From: Lacinutrix sp.
GTDB lineage: Bacteria; Bacteroidota; Bacteroidia; Flavobacteriales; Flavobacteriaceae
Assembly: GCF_029238095.1 (NCBI RefSeq)
Contig: NZ_JAQWGS010000015.1
Span: 1 to 64,000, forward strand
DNA: 64,000 bases
Direction: 5' to 3'
A model generated the notes under the pieces. That model saw only the letters and a list, made by a program, of their open reading frames with translations. It was not told the DNA's origin and made no database searches. Shown one piece after another: positions 52,184-64,000 of the stretch (its first letter is position 1; every line of letters begins with the position of its first letter). The translations under genes and the position numbers were made by a program.

Positions 52184-53380
52184 CTATTTTTTTATTATTT
52201 TTTTTGTTGTTGAAAATGTATTTGATTGAATTTTTATAAAATAAATACCAGTATCAAGATTAGAAACATTTAAAACATGGTCTTCAATTATTCTTTTGAA
52301 TATCTCTATTCCCATAATATTATAAATAGAAACAGAAATTGGAGTGCTTAGGTTTGTACTAAAATTGATATAACTTGAGTATATTGGGTTCGGATAAATT
52401 TTAATAAATTTATTTTCTTCAACCGAATCAACAGAAAGAATATTTGGTAAAAAAAACTGTAAAGCATCATTTGCCATAAGTTGAGCATTATGACCAATAC
52501 CTGTAACTTCATGCTTTTCCCAGTTAAATGGTAAACTTATATCAGTAGAAGTAGTTTGACTTGTGTTAAAAAAATACTGACCTCTTACATATCGATTTAA
52601 GCCTTGTTGTGCATCTAAAATATCATTATGTCTTAGAGCTGGAGAATTTGGATCTGTATCATTTGTTCCTAAATGTATGACTAACTCTTTACCAAAGAAT
52701 TGCTCCAAAGTAACATTTAGTGGTGTAGTTAAATTTTGAAAAAAAATAAACAAATCCTCATTTGTTGATCCAAATGGAAGTCCTGTACCATAAGGATAAT
52801 CAACACCTGATTCTGGCACAGTGTACCAGCCCGAATTTGAACATACGCCTATTCCCAACTTACTATCTGGCACAAAAAGTGCAAAACGATGCAAAAATTG
52901 AGCACCACCAGAATGACCCCAAGCACTATAGGTTTCTTGTACTCCAGAAATATCATTCTTAATATATTCAAAGAGAGGTTCTATGACAGAAAATGTCCAT
53001 TCATTGGGATCGTTAAACTCTAATTGTGTTGGGTTATCACCGTCCACAAAAACATTACCCATAAGGTAATTATCTCCCAGACCAGGATAATTAACATTAG
53101 TAAATTCAGGCGCAAAAACCATAAATCCATTTGAATTTGCCATACTTATCCAATAATCTCTGTAATTGGCTCCATCTCTATTGGCACCATGAAAGGACAT
53201 CAATATAGGCATAGTTGTGATATTACCAGATGGAATATGATAAAACACTTCAATAGGTGGCCTGTTTACAGGAGATTGAGGCGTAAAAATAAAAGAACCT
53301 GTTGTATTTGAATTTAAATTTTGAGTATAAATTAAACCCGAAAAAAGCAAAAAAGAAAATAAAAAAAGATGGTTTTTCAT
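52184..53380 (-). CDS. Secreted alpha/beta-hydrolase (esterase/depolymerase-like) with T9SS C-terminal sorting domain
   Basis: Signal peptide; PILMSFHGANRDGANYRDYW, SAWGHSGGAQFLHRF; C-terminal IKIYPNPIYSSYINFSTN...GIYFIKIQSNTFSTTKKIIKK. Confidence 0.85.
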   Translation of the reverse strand: MKNHLFLFSFLLFSGLIYTQNLNSNTTGSFIFTPQSPVNRPPIEVFYHIPSGNITTMPILMSFHGANRDGANYRDYWISMANSNGFMVFAPEFTNVNYPGLGDNYLMGNVFVDGDNPTQLEFNDPNEWTFSVIEPLFEYIKNDISGVQETYSAWGHSGGAQFLHRFALFVPDSKLGIGVCSNSGWYTVPESGVDYPYGTGLPFGSTNEDLFIFFQNLTTPLNVTLEQFFGKELVIHLGTNDTDPNSPALRHNDILDAQQGLNRYVRGQYFFNTSQTTSTDISLPFNWEKHEVTGIGHNAQLMANDALQFFLPNILSVDSVEENKFIKIYPNPIYSSYINFSTNLSTPISVSIYNIMGIEIFKRIIEDHVLNVSNLDTGIYFIKIQSNTFSTTKKIIKK

Positions 53381-53381
53381 T

Positions 53382-54605
53382 CTAGAAAACAATTTGAATT
53401 AAGAACTCACCAACAGTTTGATTTCCAACATTTTTAATATCTATACTGCTTATTGAGGCTTGCATTTTTAAATTATTGTTATCAAAATATTTGGTTAAAC
53501 CCAATGTAAAACCACTGTAATCTGTTAATAAAGAATTGAGGTTAGATTCAAATTCTGGTGTAGCACTTTCATATCTCAAATCAAAACCAAAACCCTTTTT
53601 AGTAACATAGCCTGCTTGGACATTGTAGCTATCACCTAATACTAAAAATTCACTTATTTGTTGAGGCGCTAAAATTTGTGTTGCAGCTTCATCTGTGTAA
53701 ACTAAATCTAAACCTTCTGCGCGTGCAATGGCATATTCTGCTAATAATGAAAAGCCTTTGTATTTTAACAATAAGTCAATGTAGGCTTGTGAGTAATCAG
53801 GAAGATTTTCACTTCCATTTGCACTAAATAAAAGGAAGTCTCCATGACCTTCTCCGTTAGCATTACTCGCTCCAAAATTTTTACTTGCAGCTGCTCCAAT
53901 AACAAGTTTCAAATTTTCTTCATGTGCTAAATCTGCACTAAATAAATCATTCCCATCTGTAAAGAAGCCTAAAGGATACAAATCTAAACGACCACCAACT
54001 TTTAAGCCACCTAAATCTGAATCTCGAGAATCATTGCCAAATGAATTACGTCCATCACCTGATGTTAATGCAAACATGGGTGCAAAACCAAATTTGTTGC
54101 CAACTTTAAATTTAGATTCTATAAATACACCAAATTCACGACCTGTATTACTTAACGTTTGACTCAATAAACTTCGGTTTGTAAATTGCAACCTATCTTC
54201 TCTGTACGTCATCTCACGATTATTTATAAATGTTTGTTTCTGTCCAAATGTTATGGTAATATCTTTTGTTAGATGATAGGCTAACCAAGCGTCTAACAAG
54301 GGTTGCGATTGACTATAATCCGTTTGAACTAAAAAGCTCACCTTTTCTTTAACTGCTTTTCCGCTTAATATTAGGAAGGCGTTTCTGGCATTAAATGTAT
54401 TTTCGCCATCCTTACCTGAAACTTTACTATAGCTATATGTTGGTGTTACAAAACCACCAAAATTAAACTGATAATTTCCTTCGTTAAAAGAAAAATTCAG
54501 TCCACTACCAAGGTCAAAGCTTGCTACATTTTTTTCTTTGCTTTCTTGTGCATTTATCAGTATTGATAAACTGAAAAATAGGATTAGTGATGCTATTTTT
54601 TTCAT
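53382..54605 (-). CDS. Phosphate-selective porin O/P-like outer-membrane protein
   Basis: Signal peptide; TPTYSYSKVSG..., DAWLAYHLTKDITITFGQKQTFINNRE, GGLKVGGRLDLYPLGFF. Confidence 0.82.
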   Translation of the reverse strand: MKKIASLILFFSLSILINAQESKEKNVASFDLGSGLNFSFNEGNYQFNFGGFVTPTYSYSKVSGKDGENTFNARNAFLILSGKAVKEKVSFLVQTDYSQSQPLLDAWLAYHLTKDITITFGQKQTFINNREMTYREDRLQFTNRSLLSQTLSNTGREFGVFIESKFKVGNKFGFAPMFALTSGDGRNSFGNDSRDSDLGGLKVGGRLDLYPLGFFTDGNDLFSADLAHEENLKLVIGAAASKNFGASNANGEGHGDFLLFSANGSENLPDYSQAYIDLLLKYKGFSLLAEYAIARAEGLDLVYTDEAATQILAPQQISEFLVLGDSYNVQAGYVTKKGFGFDLRYESATPEFESNLNSLLTDYSGFTLGLTKYFDNNNLKMQASISSIDIKNVGNQTVGEFLIQIVF

Positions 54606-54625
54606 ATCTGTATAAATTTGCTTCA

Positions 54626-56158
54626 TTAGTTTGTTATTCTATATATTGGTAAATATGCTTCTTTTTCTGTTTCAAGTACACCAAATGACACAAAGCTATT
54701 TGGCGCTTCGGGTTCTAAAACTTCAAGAATAATATTAGCTCTTCTTTGATTGATATTTATTTTATAAGTCCCTTTTGGGAATTGAATGTTTTTAGTTTCA
54801 ATTATTGTTTCTACTGTTTGAAGATTCATTTTTTCGTATTTCTTTGAATCTCTTTCGTATTCAGAAATCTTATAGGTTTCTACTTCAACTTCTTGGTCTT
54901 CGGTTAGTGTTTCAATGGTTACACCTAATGTTTTTAATTTTTCTATAATCTCTGTTTGATTTGCATCAACTAAGTAAGCTAATGGTCTTTCTCTTATTAA
55001 ATTTGCTTGCGATCTTAAACCATCTCTTATCGTAACATCTAATTCTATAATCTTATTAGTATCTAAATCTATAATTTCTAACGTCCCTTTTTCAATTGTT
55101 TTTTTACTTGTAACAACCACATCATTTTGCTGGTTTATGGCTTTATTTATTTCATTTTTCACCAAAGTTATGTTAGCACTTGCCGTTTCTAAATAGGATA
55201 CAGCTATTAAAAAAGTTGTATTAATTCTTCTTTTAAAAGATGTTCTTCCAATGCCAACACCTCTAATCTCAAACAAAGTCGAAATTGTGTTGGTTAGGGC
55301 ATAGTTTGTTGCACTTGAGCGTGCATTGGTTGACCCTTGATTAAAATGAATTTCGCCACCATATTTTCCAGTAGAAATATAGTCATGGTGTTTTAACTCA
55401 TTCTTGTCTAGTATTCGTCTGGCATTTTCAACAAATAATGTATCTGTTAATGTTCGAATATTTTCAGGTACATTCAAATTTCCACTATATAAAAACATGG
55501 CATCAAACAGTGACGTAATTCCGAAATCACTTAACTGAGTAAAATCTTTTCGATATGGTCTGTATTCATGAAAATCCAATCCTATTTCTGGATTAAAATC
55601 TGAAAATGCCTGCTTTAAAGACACACTTTCTGGTGCCATTAATTTGGTTTGGTCTCTATTTAAATCTAAACCGTTTGCAGCATATCTGTCTTGTTTTAAA
55701 TAGCCATCAATGTTTGCCATTGGCACAATAGCCAAATCGATATCATCTAATAAATAAGTGTATTTTGAATCATTTAAAAGCTTGTCTAACAGATATAACA
55801 TGCCTTCAGTACTTGCTGGCTCATTACCATGTAATCCACCTTGCATCCAAACTTTTATTTTCTCTTTAGTATTTTGTGTTGCCAATAGAACTAACGGAAT
55901 TTGATATCCTTTTTGACTTTTTCCAATAAAATTTAATTTAATATTTTCAGGATGTTGTTCTACTAAATTATTTAGGAACAACATCAAATCATCATAATCC
56001 GTAAATCCTTTGTTCTTTTGTAACGCTGGTGTTGTATTTTCCAAGGTTTCAATTTCTGGAAAAAACTTTTGTGTAATTTGTTTAGATTGCGGATTTAACT
56101 GCGCAAACGTATTTACTGAACAATAAAGAACGATTATTAAAATCACTATATATTTCAT
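54626..56158 (-). CDS. M14-family zinc carboxypeptidase, secreted
   Basis: Signal peptide; MQGGLHGNEPASTEGMLYLLDKLL (HxxE), NGLDLNRDQTKL, GLDFHEYRPY, LFEIRGVGIGRTSF. Confidence 0.88.
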   Translation of the reverse strand: MKYIVILIIVLYCSVNTFAQLNPQSKQITQKFFPEIETLENTTPALQKNKGFTDYDDLMLFLNNLVEQHPENIKLNFIGKSQKGYQIPLVLLATQNTKEKIKVWMQGGLHGNEPASTEGMLYLLDKLLNDSKYTYLLDDIDLAIVPMANIDGYLKQDRYAANGLDLNRDQTKLMAPESVSLKQAFSDFNPEIGLDFHEYRPYRKDFTQLSDFGITSLFDAMFLYSGNLNVPENIRTLTDTLFVENARRILDKNELKHHDYISTGKYGGEIHFNQGSTNARSSATNYALTNTISTLFEIRGVGIGRTSFKRRINTTFLIAVSYLETASANITLVKNEINKAINQQNDVVVTSKKTIEKGTLEIIDLDTNKIIELDVTIRDGLRSQANLIRERPLAYLVDANQTEIIEKLKTLGVTIETLTEDQEVEVETYKISEYERDSKKYEKMNLQTVETIIETKNIQFPKGTYKININQRRANIILEVLEPEAPNSFVSFGVLETEKEAYLPIYRITN

Positions 56159-56160
56159 CT

Positions 56161-57468
56161 TTAAAAAGCAAATGTTAGCATGATTCTGGCTAAATGTTCG
56201 TTTCCAGGAATTGTAATTCCCTCGTTATTGTTTATACCATCACTACCATCAATGTAAGTCCAATCGGCTTGAATTTTAGCTCCGTAACTCCGTGATAAAT
56301 ACTTACTGATTCCTATGGTATAATAATTAGGTCTATTATAAAACGTAGCATTATTTAGAAATGAATGGTCATCTGCTTTTAAGTGTGTGTAACGAGCATC
56401 GAGCGATATACCATTTTTAAATAAATAACCAGCTTGTATATTGCAGGCTTCTCCTAACATCATTCTCCCTTTTACATAATTCTCTACATCTTGTATACCA
56501 TTTACATCAAACGTTGTTGATGTAGAACCATCATTTCTAACACGTTGTGTTATATCACCTGGGACACTAGCTGTGGTTTTAACATATTCACCAAGTGCGG
56601 AAAATCCTTGATATTTAAAAAGAAAATCAACACCATATTTTGTGTAGTCTGGTAATGATTCTTCGTCATTATCATTTAAATAAAGAATAGTACCACTATC
56701 GCGACCACGTCTACTACTCATACCATTATTATGGCTAAAATTAGCTCCAACAACTAATTTTGGTGTGCGCTCTCTAACTATATCTGCCTGTCTAAATTGA
56801 CCAAAGTTTGTAAATAAACCAAATGGTAAATAATCTATTCTACCACCAATTTTTAGTCCGCCAAAATCTCTTTGAAGCACATTACCGCCATCTCCATTTG
56901 TTAAAACAAAATAAGGCTTTAGATAAGACCCTTTACCAGTTTTGAAACCTCCTTCTAAAAACAAACCAAACTCTCGTATACTTGCAAAAGCAGACGTTAC
57001 GCGACTTCGTTCAACTAATTGAAGTGTATTTGAAAGCATGAATAACTCACGGTTATCTGTAAATGTTGACCGCTGTCCAAATGTTGCTTTAATCCGATTA
57101 GTTATGTCATAAGAAACAAAAGCATCTAACAGGAAATTATTGGTAGAGGCATCTCCAGCTTCAGAAGTTCCACTTAAGTCAAATGCAAATCTGTATTTAA
57201 AACGCTCATTTTTTAAATTTCCATCAAAACGTAGCCTAATACGACGCATTCTAAAACGATTTTGAGTGCTGTTTTCATCAACATCTGTAAACGTTTTTGT
57301 CTCCATGTAAGGCTGTAAATAACCAGTTATTCTCATTGTATAACCATCATTGGTACTAAAATTTAGCCCTTCCCCAAATTTATAGGTATCTAATTTTACC
57401 TCTTGCGCTCTAACAGATATACCTAGGAAAACAAATACACAAAGACAAGTTATTTTAAAACCTTTCAT
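56161..57468 (-). CDS. Phosphate-selective porin O/P-like outer-membrane protein (second copy)
   Basis: Signal peptide; DAFVSYDITNRIKATFGQRSTFTDNRELFMLSNTLQ, GGLKIGGRIDYLPFGLFTN; paralogous to 53382-54605. Confidence 0.82.
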   Translation of the reverse strand: MKGFKITCLCVFVFLGISVRAQEVKLDTYKFGEGLNFSTNDGYTMRITGYLQPYMETKTFTDVDENSTQNRFRMRRIRLRFDGNLKNERFKYRFAFDLSGTSEAGDASTNNFLLDAFVSYDITNRIKATFGQRSTFTDNRELFMLSNTLQLVERSRVTSAFASIREFGLFLEGGFKTGKGSYLKPYFVLTNGDGGNVLQRDFGGLKIGGRIDYLPFGLFTNFGQFRQADIVRERTPKLVVGANFSHNNGMSSRRGRDSGTILYLNDNDEESLPDYTKYGVDFLFKYQGFSALGEYVKTTASVPGDITQRVRNDGSTSTTFDVNGIQDVENYVKGRMMLGEACNIQAGYLFKNGISLDARYTHLKADDHSFLNNATFYNRPNYYTIGISKYLSRSYGAKIQADWTYIDGSDGINNNEGITIPGNEHLARIMLTFAF

Positions 57469-57487
57469 ACTTTTATAATTAAAACTA

Positions 57488-58630
57488 TTATTCAAAATTT
57501 CCTTTAACAATTATGGTTCCATTATGCATCATTTGTTGTCCTTTAGCAAACACATCTGTTAGCTTTAAATTTTCTGTAAAACAGCACAAATCTGCATCAT
57601 AACCAACTTCTATTTTACCTTTATGTTTAAGTCCTAGATTTCGAGCTGGATTTGTAGTAATTAGTTTGAATGCCTCTGAAATTGAAACGCCACCATCTTT
57701 AATTAACAAAACCACTTCTTCAAGATTTTTATGAATTGGTGCTTTCCGAACTCCAATAGCATTTCCTGTATCATCAAACTTTGTTAGGCCTGCGTTTCCA
57801 TCTGTACTGAAAGTCATATTATCTATACTAACTCCGTTTTCTAGTGCGTATAAAACCGATTTATAGGGGTCTGTATATTTAGACGCCCCTGTTGTAATAT
57901 CAATGATACCGCCAAGTTTGGCAAATTCCATAGCCTGGTCAAAAAGTTCTTTGGTACGACCAACATGTGTTGGTGAAATATGTTCAATTGGAAATTTATA
58001 TTCGTTAACTAACTCGAAAAGCACATCCATTTTAGTGTCTAAATTTCCAAGATGTACGTGGAGTATTCCTTTTTTATTCCCTATAAAACCGCCAACTCTT
58101 ACATCACGTAATTTTCTAACTAACTCTAATGCAGTTGGGTACGATGATCGTATATCACTAATGGCTATTTTACAGCCTAAAATATTATCTATAAATATCA
58201 TATCGCTTTGAATGCTATCTGTAATGGTTACAGAATCTAATCCATAATAGCCACAAAACATATAAGCTGAAATGCCATCACTCTCTAAAGATTTTGCTTT
58301 TGCATAAAGCACTTTGATATTTCTTATAGTGCCATCAGTTCCCAATAAACCAACTACAGTTGTGGTACCGCATGCAATGAGTTCGCTTAAATTAATTTCA
58401 GGCGTCATAGATGAAAATCCATCTTTTCCGCCTGCACCAGTAATGTGAATATGTTGGTCTATTAAACCAGGTGTTACTATTTTACCTTCGGCATTAAAAA
58501 CTTCGGCTTCGTTTTTATAAACATCTAAATTATCAGCAATGGCCACAATTTTATTCCCAGCAATTAAAATATCTTTTTTACCTAAATATTTAGGGGTATA
58601 TAGTTCTGTATTTTGTATTAATTTAATCAT
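57488..58630 (-). CDS. iadA: Isoaspartyl dipeptidase (beta-aspartyl-peptidase)
   Basis: VTPGLIDQHIHITGAGGKDGFSSMTPEI, TTVVGLLGTDG, HVHLGNL, EHISPTHVGRT, FSTDGNAG: amidohydrolase fold with IadA-specific layout. Confidence 0.92.
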   Translation of the reverse strand: MIKLIQNTELYTPKYLGKKDILIAGNKIVAIADNLDVYKNEAEVFNAEGKIVTPGLIDQHIHITGAGGKDGFSSMTPEINLSELIACGTTTVVGLLGTDGTIRNIKVLYAKAKSLESDGISAYMFCGYYGLDSVTITDSIQSDMIFIDNILGCKIAISDIRSSYPTALELVRKLRDVRVGGFIGNKKGILHVHLGNLDTKMDVLFELVNEYKFPIEHISPTHVGRTKELFDQAMEFAKLGGIIDITTGASKYTDPYKSVLYALENGVSIDNMTFSTDGNAGLTKFDDTGNAIGVRKAPIHKNLEEVVLLIKDGGVSISEAFKLITTNPARNLGLKHKGKIEVGYDADLCCFTENLKLTDVFAKGQQMMHNGTIIVKGNFE

Positions 58631-58634
58631 ATAG

Positions 58635-59996
58635 TTATATAAAATGATATGTTAACATTACCACTAGTACGACTAAAAATGGAATGATGTTGCGCTTTAC
58701 GATTTCAATTGTTGATACTTTAGCAATTTCTGCAGTAGCAATGATAACACCTGCTATTGGTGATACTGTTCTACCCATAGATGCCGATAATTGCATTGGC
58801 AAAATAATGGAAGCACTTTCTACACCTAATTTGTTCGCTATTTTTGGCACTAATGGTCCAAAGGCAAAGAATGATGCATTACCACTTCCCATTAGCATTG
58901 ATGCTAGAAAAATCATAATAGTCATAACTATACCAATTCCTACTGCACCAAAACCAAGATTTTGAGTCAGATCTAATAGGCCATCGATAAACCCAAGACT
59001 TATTAAGCCTTTTGCAAAAATATCTGCAGTAATAATTAAGGTTACTACCGTTTTAAAAATGTTTCCCATGCCACTCCAAAATGTATTTAAAGAGTTGAAA
59101 ACTTCTTTTATTTTTTTGGTTCGGATGAATTCAAAAATCAATGCTACGAATAAGCTTATAAACATTGCTGTAGTTGTATCTAAAGAAATTGGCACACTAA
59201 AAATGTTGAAAATTTCTGAAAACACGATTAAAAGTATAATTGGTAATATTGGAATTAACGCATAAATTAATGGTGCTTTTAATTCTTTTTCTTCGGCTTT
59301 GTGTTGTTCTTTTTCAAAGCCATTTTTTTTGTCGTAGTAACTATTCACAAAATAATAGGTAATCATCATCACAATACTTAATGGCCAAACTAAAGGGATT
59401 TGATAGTTCAAAAAGTAAATTATTGAGTCTATACTTGTGATACTAGTTGCACTAGCAGTAATTGCAGATGCTGGACCAATACCAAAGGCTGTAGTTGCTG
59501 TAATTACTGAAACTGCCGACAACCTGCTAACTCCTAAATTTACCAAAATTGGAAACATTGATGCCATTAAAAGCAATCCTAAACCTGCTGCAGATGGTAT
59601 GGCCGTAAATAATAATTGACCTATTGGAATTACTAATGAAGCAGCTAAATAAGGTTTCTTTTTAAAGAATTTTAAAGGCTTCATTGCTACAAAAACCAAT
59701 GCATTCGAGGCACCTATTTTATCTATATAAGCTACAAAACCACCAATTGCCATAATCATTAACCCAACGCCAGCATTAGTTTTGCTAAAAGATTCTTTTA
59801 TATATCTAAATAAATCAAATCCATAAAAACCTGTTGGGTCTTTAAGTGTTGGTAAATTATAATTTAAAACTTGAGCCACAATGAGCATTAACAAACCAGA
59901 TACCAATAGTACTGCATGCGGATTGTACTTTTTTAATAAAAGTCTTCCAGCAACTACTATAACTAATAGTGATATTATGGCTCCTAAATAACTCAT
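58635..59996 (-). CDS. DcuC-family C4-dicarboxylate transporter
   Basis: ~12 hydrophobic segments; FGIGPASAITASATS, LASMLMGSGNASFFAFGPLVPKIA, LQLSASMGRTVSPIAGVI-like motif. Confidence 0.85.
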   Translation of the reverse strand: MSYLGAIISLLVIVVAGRLLLKKYNPHAVLLVSGLLMLIVAQVLNYNLPTLKDPTGFYGFDLFRYIKESFSKTNAGVGLMIMAIGGFVAYIDKIGASNALVFVAMKPLKFFKKKPYLAASLVIPIGQLLFTAIPSAAGLGLLLMASMFPILVNLGVSRLSAVSVITATTAFGIGPASAITASATSITSIDSIIYFLNYQIPLVWPLSIVMMITYYFVNSYYDKKNGFEKEQHKAEEKELKAPLIYALIPILPIILLIVFSEIFNIFSVPISLDTTTAMFISLFVALIFEFIRTKKIKEVFNSLNTFWSGMGNIFKTVVTLIITADIFAKGLISLGFIDGLLDLTQNLGFGAVGIGIVMTIMIFLASMLMGSGNASFFAFGPLVPKIANKLGVESASIILPMQLSASMGRTVSPIAGVIIATAEIAKVSTIEIVKRNIIPFLVVLVVMLTYHFI

Positions 59997-60005
59997 TAAC
60001 TGGTT

Positions 60006-61010
60006 TTAAAATGAAGTTCCATCTAATTTGGTTCCTGGTGAAAATAAATCACCATTAGCTTCTGGAATTCCTGCATGTTGTACAAAATCTCCTGTAAGGT
60101 CTGGATTTCTTGTATAAGATTCATCTGGATTTCCAGATAATGCAGAATTATCAAAAGTGAGCACTACATTTCCTGAAGTATCAGCAAGCGTCATCACATC
60201 ACCTGAATTGGTTATGTTTAATAACCCTTCAGAAGCTATTTGCACTAATGCGCCTCCAAAACTTCCTGTTGGTGTTCCTCCTCCAAAAAGAACTAAAACT
60301 CCATTTGGTGCTAATATTGTTCCTGATGGAAATGTATGTCTTAAACTAGAAGCATCAGACACAGTATAACCGCTTAAGTCTAATTCTGGACCAGAGTTGT
60401 AAAATTCTATAAATTCGTCTTCATTAGCATCACGAGTTCCATCTGCATTAGCATCACCTGCTAAGTCTCCAGCTGGATCGTAAAGCACTTCATTAATTAT
60501 AAACCCTAACCATGGGCAACCATTGTTATCTACTTCACCAGCTTCATTTGGACATAAATCGTTTGCATCTAATACACCATCACCATCACTATCAGAGTCA
60601 TCGTCTAAAACAGAAATTGTAATTTCTGTCTCTGAAAGCAGAATTACATTTTGCACATTTCCAACACTTACAATAAGTGTTTCTGCACCTTCAACTGTGT
60701 TATCTTGCAACCCTGTGAGGGTTACGCTTCCCAAAGTAGTACCAGCACTAATTGTAATTTCAGAAGCACTTACTGAATAATCACTTGATTGTGTTGCAGT
60801 ACCTGAGATTGAAAGTGGAATTACCAATTGTTGCGTTGCAGCAGAATTAAGAATTGCAGAAAGAGTAATTGTTCCACTAGCTTCACTAAGATTTGTATCG
60901 CTAGCAGATAATTCTAATGCTGGTAAGATATCTTCCGTATCGCAAGAAGCAAAACAAAATACTATACCAAAAACAAAAATTGCTTTTTTAAAGAAGTGAT
61001 AAGATTTCAT
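60006..61010 (-). CDS. Lipoprotein with Calx-beta-like, TSP3-like and lamin-tail domains
   Basis: Lipobox (VFCFASC); DDDSDSDGDGVLDANDLCPNEAGEVDNNGCP; IINEVLYDPAGD...EFIEFYNSGPELDLSGYTVSD. Confidence 0.82.
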   Translation of the reverse strand: MKSYHFFKKAIFVFGIVFCFASCDTEDILPALELSASDTNLSEASGTITLSAILNSAATQQLVIPLSISGTATQSSDYSVSASEITISAGTTLGSVTLTGLQDNTVEGAETLIVSVGNVQNVILLSETEITISVLDDDSDSDGDGVLDANDLCPNEAGEVDNNGCPWLGFIINEVLYDPAGDLAGDANADGTRDANEDEFIEFYNSGPELDLSGYTVSDASSLRHTFPSGTILAPNGVLVLFGGGTPTGSFGGALVQIASEGLLNITNSGDVMTLADTSGNVVLTFDNSALSGNPDESYTRNPDLTGDFVQHAGIPEANGDLFSPGTKLDGTSF

Positions 61011-61030
61011 GTATGAGAAGTATTAAGATT

Positions 61031-61076
61031 AAACAATAGAGCATTTTAAGAAAATATAAAATGCTCTATTGTTTTT
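61031..61076 (-). terminator. Long perfect hairpin terminator between the two lamin-tail genes
   Basis: aaacaatagagcatttta-agaaaata-taaaatgctctattgttttt. Confidence 0.7.
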
Positions 61077-61083
61077 ATGTTAT

Positions 61084-62802
61084 TTACCTAATTATTATTT
61101 TTTTAGTGCTTGTATAATTGTTTTGAGAAACTTTTAAAAAGTATATTCCAGCATTTAATGCAGAAACATTTAGTTTATTATTAATCAGTGTTGAATTACT
61201 AATTAGTTGTCCTAAAACATCAAATACAACAACTTTAATAGTTCCAGAATTTTTACTTACGATATTTACATAACCGTTTGTTATCGGGTTAGGATAAATA
61301 TTAAAACTATTTGCGATAAATTGATCAACTGATAATGTTGAACCATCTACTAATTCTCCTGGTGAAAAGAGCAAACTAGCATTGGCATCAGTATGTAATG
61401 TAAAACTACCTGTAAAGTCTGGTGATCTTGTAACTGATTGATTTAAACCATGATTTATTCCTGTAACAGTACTATCATATAGTAAAACAACATCTCCACT
61501 TGGGTTTTCAATAGTGATTACATCTCCGCCATTAGTTAAATTCAATTCTCCTTCCGATGCTGTTTGAACTATTGAACCTCCAAAACTTCCAGTTGGTGAT
61601 CCTCCTCCAAAAACTACTAACATATTGTTTGCTGGAATTATAGTTGAAGCAGGAAATGTATGTCTTAAGGCAGCTCCATCAGAAACTGTGTAACCACTTA
61701 TATCAAGAGTTGCATTAGAATTATTATAAAACTCTATAAACTCATCTTGTAATGCATCTCTAACACCATCGCCATTTGCATCACCTGTTATGTCAGTAGC
61801 AGGATCATAATGTACTTCATTAATAATTAATGGTATACAACCTGGACTTTCAATATCTACAGATAAATCACAAACACCGCCATCTCCAGTATCACTCACT
61901 GAAACTGTTATATTTGTTCCTTCAGTTATCCCTGTAATCGTAATAGTACCTGAAGCAACCAAACTTGGGTCATCACCACCAACAGACCCTGCTGTTGAGC
62001 CAATTACAAATGTATTACCATTATCACCTCCAGAAAAATCTATTGAGGCTGTATAGGTATCATCTGTAGCTCCAGATAAAGTAGTGTTACAACTAACAGA
62101 GGTTGCTACTAAAACAGTGGTGCAAGTTGCTCCAGTAGGTGTCCATCCAGAACCAGAACCTAAAGGGTAATTTCCTCCTAAAGTATTAAAATAGGCTTCT
62201 AGACTTGTAGCTCCAGCCGTTTGGCAAGAAGTATTGACATCTAAATCATCTTCTGCGGTAATTACCCAATCCGAAGGATTCCAAGTACCTAAATCTGGAT
62301 TTGATAATCTAGTCGCAACGGCATCATTATGATTCCAATTAGAATCAGTATCAAGATCTGCATCTGTTTCAGTTTTTCCAAATTGACTTACAACAACGCC
62401 GTTTAACACAATTTGATAACCATCATCACCATTTGTAGAGTTGGTAGTTCCAACGGTATTGGAAGCGTTAAATGTTGTTGATGGAAATTCAGCTTCCATC
62501 AATGCAATATCTCGCACGATATAAACAAAAGAGTCTGTAACGGTACCTAAAGCAGAAATATCTATTTGATTAGCTGCCCAAGACGAACCATTGTTCATGT
62601 AGTTTAATATAACTTCATCATCAGCTGTATTTTGTAAGGCATCAGCACCAAAATTGGCAAAATTGACCGTGCCATCAACATACAGCTCAACGGTTTTAAC
62701 GAAAGGGGTAGCACAACCAGTCTCTATAATTTTTGTTATCGTAACGTTTTGGGCAAACCCACCAAATGAAATTAATAAAAACAAAATGTAAATTTTTTTC
62801 AT
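61084..62802 (-). CDS. Secreted lamin-tail-domain protein with T9SS C-terminal sorting domain
   Basis: LIINEVHYDPATDITGDANGDGVRDALQDEFIEFYNNSNATLDISGYTVSD; NSFNIYPNPITNGYVNIVSKNS...GIYFLKVSQNNYTSTKKIIIR. Confidence 0.88.
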   Translation of the reverse strand: MKKIYILFLLISFGGFAQNVTITKIIETGCATPFVKTVELYVDGTVNFANFGADALQNTADDEVILNYMNNGSSWAANQIDISALGTVTDSFVYIVRDIALMEAEFPSTTFNASNTVGTTNSTNGDDGYQIVLNGVVVSQFGKTETDADLDTDSNWNHNDAVATRLSNPDLGTWNPSDWVITAEDDLDVNTSCQTAGATSLEAYFNTLGGNYPLGSGSGWTPTGATCTTVLVATSVSCNTTLSGATDDTYTASIDFSGGDNGNTFVIGSTAGSVGGDDPSLVASGTITITGITEGTNITVSVSDTGDGGVCDLSVDIESPGCIPLIINEVHYDPATDITGDANGDGVRDALQDEFIEFYNNSNATLDISGYTVSDGAALRHTFPASTIIPANNMLVVFGGGSPTGSFGGSIVQTASEGELNLTNGGDVITIENPSGDVVLLYDSTVTGINHGLNQSVTRSPDFTGSFTLHTDANASLLFSPGELVDGSTLSVDQFIANSFNIYPNPITNGYVNIVSKNSGTIKVVVFDVLGQLISNSTLINNKLNVSALNAGIYFLKVSQNNYTSTKKIIIR

Positions 62803-62903
62803 AATAATTAGTTTTAGTTTAATTAGACACTAAAGTAAAACTAGATTAAAAAGAAATAAGATACCAGTTAACTAAAAAAAAAAATACCAATTAGCATTGT
62901 GAA

Positions 62904-64000
62904 TTATAATAATTTGACCATACTGTTTACTTTTTCTTTTATAATATTTGGTTTTACAGACGAATAACCTATAATTAAACCTTTAAGTTTAGGTTTGCCA
63001 ACATAACATTTGCTTAATGAAAATACAGTTATATTTTGTTTTTTTAATTTTTCAATAAATTTTTTTTCTTCTTCCACAGAAACATAATCTTTGAATAATG
63101 CTAAAACATGAAAACTAGAAAAAGACTTGTTTTGTATGTACATGTTTTTACTTTTTTCATTGAATAATGAAATAAATAAATCATGCCGTGTTTTAGCAAC
63201 ATCAATACTATTATTTATGTGTTGAAATAAATAATTCTTTTCAATAAATTGATTCATAACTACCTGAATTGAAGGTGTAACAAATCTGTGTGAATGCTCT
63301 TGGATTGCAGCAACTGTATTCACTAAATATTTTGGAACAATCATGTACCCTAGACGTATAGAGGGATGCAATAATCTATTAAATGTTCCCATATAAATAG
63401 TTCTATCTTCAACATCTAAACTAAAAATGGTTGGAATGCTTTCAACAGAATTAGCAATTTCATTTTCATAGTCGTTTTCAATAATTAAGGCTTTATTTTT
63501 TGTTGCCCAATTCAACACTTCTTGCCTTCTTTTTAAACTCATTTTTATTCCTAAAGGGTAATGATTTGAAGGTGTTACATGTACTATTTTAACTTGTTTC
63601 TTTATAGTATTCATTTGGGTAATATCAATACCTTCGTTATCTAAATCAATAGGTATTAAATTAGCTTCAGAACTTTTAAAAACGGAATGTACATTTGGAA
63701 AAAGTGGGTTTTCAATCACTACCGAATCACCTTTATCAATTAAAGCATTAGTGATGAGGTATAAAGATTGTAAAGATCCAGAAACTATAATTATTTGGTC
63801 ATAGTCACATTTAATATTTCTACTTACATTTAAATAATTACGAATACTTTTTTTTAATTCCTCAATACCTGTTGAACTTGAATACGATAAACCAGAAGAT
63901 TTAATATGTCGCCAATAAGCATCTAGCAATTTTTTCCATTGATTTACAGGAAATACATCTATTGGTGGCAAACCAGGGCGAAATGCCAAATTGATATCAT
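62904..64000 (-). CDS. MocR/PdxR-type regulator or PLP aminotransferase, N-terminus beyond window edge
   Basis: FRPGLPPIDVFPVNQWKKLLDAYWRH, SGSLQSLYLITNALIDKGDSVVIENPLFPNV, HVTPSNHYPLGIKMSLKRRQEVLNWA; frame stays open upstream of 63989 to 64000. Confidence 0.75.
   Translation of the reverse strand, partial: DINLAFRPGLPPIDVFPVNQWKKLLDAYWRHIKSSGLSYSSSTGIEELKKSIRNYLNVSRNIKCDYDQIIIVSGSLQSLYLITNALIDKGDSVVIENPLFPNVHSVFKSSEANLIPIDLDNEGIDITQMNTIKKQVKIVHVTPSNHYPLGIKMSLKRRQEVLNWATKNKALIIENDYENEIANSVESIPTIFSLDVEDRTIYMGTFNRLLHPSIRLGYMIVPKYLVNTVAAIQEHSHRFVTPSIQVVMNQFIEKNYLFQHINNSIDVAKTRHDLFISLFNEKSKNMYIQNKSFSSFHVLALFKDYVSVEEEKKFIEKLKKQNITVFSLSKCYVGKPKLKGLIIGYSSVKPNIIKEKVNSMVKLL

Follow-up and report, generated by a model that had tools for sequence, protein, structure and literature searches.

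A conserved gene cluster without SusCD in Lacinutrix sp. and its possible role in the use of an aspartate-rich polymer

How might a bacterium take up an acidic polymer through a locus that encodes neither SusC nor SusD? The question is raised by a cluster of ten genes near the end of the window, the 64,000-nucleotide stretch of DNA (positions 1-64,000) of contig NZ_JAQWGS010000015.1 from Lacinutrix sp. (GCF_029238095.1, an 89%-complete draft genome). The cluster joins six compact minus-strand open reading frames, for two porins, two peptidase-family enzymes, a transporter and a secreted hydrolase, to two lamin-tail-domain (LTD) genes, a MocR-type regulator and a second hydrolase gene. We hold with moderate confidence that it serves the uptake and use, as a nutrient, of an aspartate-rich polyanionic polymer whose linkages are of the isopeptide (beta) type.

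Gene order and its conservation

The cluster consists of the following features, in which T9SS stands for the type IX secretion system.

52184..53380, minus strand: HYD1, alpha/beta serine hydrolase of the PahZ1/LpqC family, secreted by T9SS, triad Ser157-Asp241-His297
53382..54626, minus strand: PorB, OprO/P-like outer-membrane porin, conserved in the locus
54626..56158, minus strand: M14 zinc carboxypeptidase with signal peptide and C-terminal beta-rich extension
56161..57510, minus strand: PorA, OprO/P-like porin
57488..58630, minus strand: IadA-like M38 amidohydrolase with Lys69 and Gly281
58635..59996, minus strand: DcuC-family C4-dicarboxylate transporter
60006..61010, minus strand: Calx-beta and LTD lipoprotein, 9 bp before dcuC
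61031..61074, no strand: inverted repeat with 18-bp stem, terminator-like, between the two LTD genes
61084..62802, minus strand: LTD protein with T9SS sorting tail
62904..64000 in the window, to 64400 on the contig, minus strand: MocR/GabR/PdxR-type regulator
64455-65381 of the contig (C15), shortly beyond the window and transcribed divergently from the regulator: HYD2, hydrolase of the HYD1 family with a lipoprotein signal

A preliminary description, made from the DNA letters, had listed the six reading frames, and all are present at the places and in the order given there. The distances between neighbours from HYD1 through dcuC are 1, -1, 2, -23 and 4 bp. The interval that it drew around them was too short, as the unit runs on upstream through 60006-64400 with HYD2 beyond. 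Judged by the spacing, the genes would form one operon, but the T9SS-tailed LTD gene may be a transcript of its own because of the terminator-like repeat between the two LTD genes. The family assignments of DcuC (NF037994, 403 bits, cut-off 100), IadA (TIGR01975, 397 bits, cut-off 331), M14 (PF00246, 76 bits) and the T9SS tail of HYD1 (PF18962, 42.6 bits) are above cut-off. Those of the porins are weaker, with PorA passing PF07396 (33.7 bits, cut-off 20.9), PorB falling just under it (20.4 bits) and PorB-type sequences being 32-36% identical to PorA. Domain and family profile scans of 52184-63989 found no member of the SusC or SusD families.

The IadA-type gene was found in 12 of 400 sampled Flavobacteriaceae genomes and the locus-type M14 gene likewise in 12, of which 11 also carry IadA. 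The hypergeometric probability of this coincidence is ~1.6e-19 for the 400 genomes, a figure that treats as independent events which are not, as the genes move as a unit. IadA is missing from two sampled genomes that share the genus of the window. Every locus on a long enough contig has the order LTD lipoprotein-DcuC-IadA-PorA-M14-PorB with the MocR-type gene ahead of it, and the same order occurs in 16 loci: 13 from the family sample besides a truncated one (L009), three from a phylum sample and the window, each genome being counted once (L017 and L026 are one genome). One of the three phylum-sample loci (G441) belongs to a family other than Flavobacteriaceae, and across loci the core enzymes are 48-95% identical in protein sequence to those of the window. 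The conservation of gene order is far above chance, and the doubt raised in the preliminary description, that the order might be confined to this strain, is dispelled. A PahZ1-type hydrolase adjoins the core in 14 of the 16 loci; a hydrolase scan of the named genomes gave three loci only.

The Calx-beta/LTD lipoprotein is present in all loci, reduced ones included, and is probably a surface binding protein. The T9SS-tailed LTD protein is divergent or replaced in several loci. The regulator of the window has Arg at the position of the Lys that binds pyridoxal phosphate in GabR-type structures (GTFNRLLHPSIRLGY, compared with GAFSKSLIPSVRISY in 7pq9), as do all locus regulators compared (14/14), and it may sense its ligand without a Schiff base to that cofactor.

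Several loci differ at the hydrolase end. When a locus from a Polaribacter metagenome-assembled genome (MAG; L027) is compared with 52184-62802 of the window, the part from LTD to M14 is 90-99% identical, PorB 77% and HYD1 60%, and almost the same HYD1 as in L027 occurs in a Flaviramulus MAG; recombination at this end of the L027 locus is probable from these sequences. In the G441 locus only, a 964-aa secreted protein lies between PorB and HYD1 (L089:2367-5261). HYD1-type hydrolases (~50% identity) stand alone in three small genomes (L060, L061, L062), with no other locus gene nearby; in two of these the hydrolase has as neighbours a large gene resembling one for a polymerase and genes resembling those for ribosomal proteins.

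Hydrolases, peptidases and transporters

The GHSGG elbow noted in the preliminary description is real. In the 398-aa HYD1 product, on which residues are numbered here (the 402-aa frame is +4), the triad S157, D241 and H297 is invariant in the hydrolases compared. The nearest solved proteins by sequence are PahZ1 of Sphingomonas KT-1 (E 1e-38), PahZ1 of Pedobacter KP-2 (4e-36; structure 9o7u, KP-2 PahZ1 by its title) and LpqC (4e-29). A profile of 20 locus-type hydrolases matched the two PahZ1 structures in the PDB with 270 and 262 bits, LpqC with 184 bits, and nothing else. A fold search with the AlphaFold model of HYD1 (mean predicted local distance difference test 75, the core better and the T9SS tail poor) gave TMt values of 0.92-0.93 for the KT-1 and KP-2 enzymes and 0.83-0.84 for LpqC, followed by a large gap to the next family at ~E 1e-10. 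The link to PahZ1 made in the preliminary description is therefore sound: both poly(aspartic acid) hydrolases that have been characterised are closest to HYD1 in sequence and in fold. The hydrolase does not group with carbohydrate esterases, an outcome that would have counted against the preliminary description. PahZ1KP-2 is an endo-enzyme on beta-Asp bonds that takes beta-tri(Asp) and not beta-di(Asp) (PMC4456602); dimers are thus left, and an enzyme of the IadA type could complete the breakdown of such products.

The IadA-like enzyme retains the dinuclear metal ligands (H60, H62, K154, H193, H222, D277), and the carboxylate-binding Arg pair and Thr are kept (R161, R225, T98; R169, R233, T106 in E. 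coli). The glutamate that binds the alpha-amine, E80 in Colwellia (PMC5517026) and E77 in E. coli (PMC10206079), is replaced by Lys69. Tree and alignment show Lys here in all 15 locus enzymes and Glu in the nine others compared (those of E. coli and Fervidobacterium, five from cyanophycin clusters and two DcuC-linked gammaproteobacterial enzymes). The locus enzymes form a clade with 100/100 support, to which the DcuC-linked gammaproteobacterial pair is sister (99/98); given this distribution, the change from Glu to Lys most simply arose once and was kept. The S289/C297 position, whose Colwellia counterpart touches the bound ligand, is Gly281 in the window. Because the E77 equivalent is Lys, the substrate would differ at its alpha-amino position. 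It is probably not an ordinary beta-L-aspartyl dipeptide; candidates would be D-isoaspartyl or N-blocked residues and C4 di-acids that have no amine. The premise that IadA hydrolyses beta-aspartyl dipeptides, taken up in the preliminary description, is not transferable to this locus, and a plain isoaspartyl-dipeptide function is lowered in probability by Lys69. Genes of the IaaA type elsewhere in the genome could serve ordinary isoaspartyl dipeptides.

The M14 enzyme has the funnelin fold of carboxypeptidase A/T type with its zinc, catalytic and carboxylate-site residues conserved (H110, E113, R158, N167-R168, H197, E297), and its C-terminal beta-rich extension had no match of its own in the fold search. 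Assignment to the CphZ/AstE type was considered and rejected, since the profile matched CPA/CPB/CPT-type structures only and the fold search agrees. An ARSSAT loop is invariant in most locus-type M14 enzymes and absent from those of a second locus type (type B, below); it was not used as evidence of S1' specificity. DcuC fits aspartate or another C4-dicarboxylate as product, as proposed earlier. In five genomes (L025, L063, L064, L088, L090) a di-acid transporter of the DASS type stands next to the locus or to its hydrolase, the call being confirmed by Pfam for L088, made by BLAST for L063 and by eye for the others. As one di-acid transporter is replaced or supplemented by an unrelated one, the product would be aspartate or a similar di-acid.

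A proposed pathway and its rivals

These parts can be arranged in an outside-to-inside pathway, with cellular locations predicted from targeting signals. The LTD proteins would hold the polymer at the cell surface, where HYD1 and its lipoprotein paralogue HYD2 would cleave it internally. PorA and PorB would let acidic oligomers through the outer membrane and the M14 carboxypeptidase would trim them in the periplasm. DcuC, together with an adjacent DASS symporter in some genomes, would move di-acid products across the inner membrane, and the IadA-like enzyme would cut the residual amide in the cytoplasm, Lys69 suggesting that this last substrate is other than a plain beta-L-Asp dipeptide. The preliminary description had proposed such a route for an isopeptide polymer; the conserved order, PahZ1-type hydrolase and di-acid transport support it in part, its plain IadA activity is not supported and cyanophycin is disfavoured. 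A more specific proposal is tentative, and on balance we doubt it: that the system is dedicated to a natural polyanion akin to poly(aspartate), beta-linked or with D residues and so far unrecognised as a nutrient, and that the amidohydrolase of the last step, derived from IadA, was re-coded by the changes E77 to K and S289 to G to cut a di-acid amide that is D-isoaspartyl, N-blocked or without the amine.

Several observations weigh against a pathway for an aspartate-rich polymer. We know of no natural beta-poly(Asp). The loci of G145 and G095 have no adjoining hydrolase, and two small genomes (G153, G277) keep a reduced set of a hydrolase with LTD lipoprotein-PorA-M14-PorB and no adjacent DcuC, IadA or MocR, the G277 locus being cut off by a contig end after the PorA start. 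No dipeptide transporter is present, and the loss of the alpha-amine-binding Glu belongs here too. The tree, whose base is weakly supported (49/90), does not nest PahZ1 within the clade of locus hydrolases, and a column comparison found no PahZ1-only residues in them, the conserved frame being common to the whole PahZ1/LpqC family. For these last two reasons sequence and model suggest, and do not establish, a beta-Asp polymer as the substrate of HYD1.

Could the polymer be cyanophycin, as the preliminary description had considered? The hydrolase would then be an extracellular cyanophycinase outside the S51 family, the M14 enzyme an M14/AstE-like dipeptide hydrolase and DcuC the importer of Asp. 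Enzymes of the M14/AstE type are known beta-Asp-Arg hydrolases (PMC10206079), Ben Hania 2017, as cited in that paper, described loci for cyanophycin use in Bacteroidetes that include iadA and a transporter, and the same genome has, on another contig, a T9SS-tailed S51/cyanophycinase-like secreted protein (G000 C24, ~70200-70742, L128), which is below the cyanophycinase cut-off. Yet the locus holds no S51 cyanophycinase and none in the genome is above the family cut-off; the transporters are of dicarboxylate type, no arginine gene is present, and the M14 enzyme matches CPA/CPT folds. The IadAs of the phylum's cyanophycin clusters form a separate clade (34-38% identity) that retains Glu and lies beside cphA/cphB, these neighbours, a cyanophycinase and CphA1, being recognised by eye and not by profile. 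The clades, the neighbourhoods and the search of the genome for its own cyanophycinase make cyanophycin quite improbable. Scavenging of proteins and peptides that are aged and isoAsp-rich, or rich in Asp, with no dedicated homopolymer, would suit an M14 enzyme of protein-carboxypeptidase fold and the action of IadA-family enzymes on isoAsp from protein ageing (PMC5517026), but the cluster lacks a general endopeptidase, the E77K change speaks against routine isoAsp dipeptides, and for these the genome carries other genes, of the IaaA type; this explanation is unlikely.

A polyester of C4 acids such as poly-beta-malate, cut by an esterase-like hydrolase and imported as malate by DcuC and DASS, would draw on the relation of the PahZ1 hydrolase family to polyhydroxybutyrate depolymerases (PMC4456602), on the dicarboxylate type of the transporters and on the loss of the amine contact in IadA through Lys69. 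M14 and IadA enzymes, however, belong to families that hydrolyse amides, and both characterised relatives of the hydrolase cut amides, so that we would be surprised to find a polyester as the substrate. The hydrolase might instead be an unrelated surface esterase standing by chance beside a di-acid or peptide uptake operon whose core is LTD lipoprotein-DcuC-IadA-PorA-M14-PorB. Its placement does vary, at the 3' end in some loci and divergent in others, G145 and G095 have none beside the core, and some close relatives lie in unrelated surroundings. A chance neighbour is nevertheless very unlikely, given that the hydrolase stands alongside in 14 of the 16 loci and is retained in the reduced ones, and that type-B loci of other families again pair it with M14. 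In type B (G766, G487, G628), genes for an M20/peptidase-T-like enzyme and for an M14 enzyme 25-28% identical to that of the window come after that of a T9SS-type hydrolase of the same family; G766 adds an AbgT transporter and G487 NhaC-type and POT-type transporters, as G628 does by appearance. Type B looks like a second polymer-utilisation locus, and the recurrence in different forms of hydrolase, M14, cytoplasmic-type peptidase and inner-membrane transporter supports a functional link. PorV-like proteins are encoded upstream in type-B loci L119, L123 and L125.

Comparison with known systems

The preliminary description knew of no system with this composition, and none is described in the PMC literature searched (most subscription journals lie outside its scope); the parts do have relatives, in PahZ1 degraders, cyanophycin loci and LysR-IadA-DcuC modules. 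With the PahZ1/PahZ2 degradation of thermal poly(aspartic acid) in Sphingomonas KT-1 and Pedobacter KP-2 the locus shares the family, fold and Ser-Asp-His triad of a secreted hydrolase, and by analogy beta-Asp endo-cleavage would be the first step here too. The locus differs in that its hydrolases are targeted by T9SS or lipoprotein signals, the operon includes porins, M14, an IadA-like enzyme and DcuC, and the PahZ1 sequences are not nested in its clade. Thermal polyaspartate is a synthetic, biodegradable industrial dispersant and scale inhibitor. PahZ1 was found with this synthetic polymer, and the conserved operon offers a genetic context in which a natural role can be tested.

The Bacteroidetes cyanophycin loci (Ben Hania 2017, cited in PMC10206079) likewise serve scavenging and combine a transporter with a gene of the iadA family; the present locus has no S51 cyanophycinase, a different IadA clade and active site, added porins and M14, and transporters for C4-dicarboxylates rather than amino acids. 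Closer in its IadA is the gammaproteobacterial LysR-IadA-DcuC module (Photobacterium DA100; an E. coli plasmid), whose IadA also stands beside DcuC and is sister to the locus IadA. It has LysR where the locus has MocR, keeps the canonical Glu and Ser, and no hydrolase, porin or M14 was seen beside it. On the E. coli plasmid pE-T70-KPC-2 (L135) the module lies between IS26 copies and has a carbapenemase gene as neighbour; the resistance plasmid carries it as a metabolic passenger. The IadA with Lys69 is an enzyme whose substrate rules have probably changed.

With SusCD-type polysaccharide utilisation loci the cluster shares its outside-to-inside logic, with binding and hydrolysis at the surface, a channel in the outer membrane, trimming in the periplasm, uptake across the inner membrane and a regulator, but OprO/P-type porins and LTD proteins replace SusC/SusD and peptidases replace glycosidases. 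If the proposed pathway is true, the locus would be a peptide-polymer counterpart to the polysaccharide utilisation loci, based on porins instead of SusCD.

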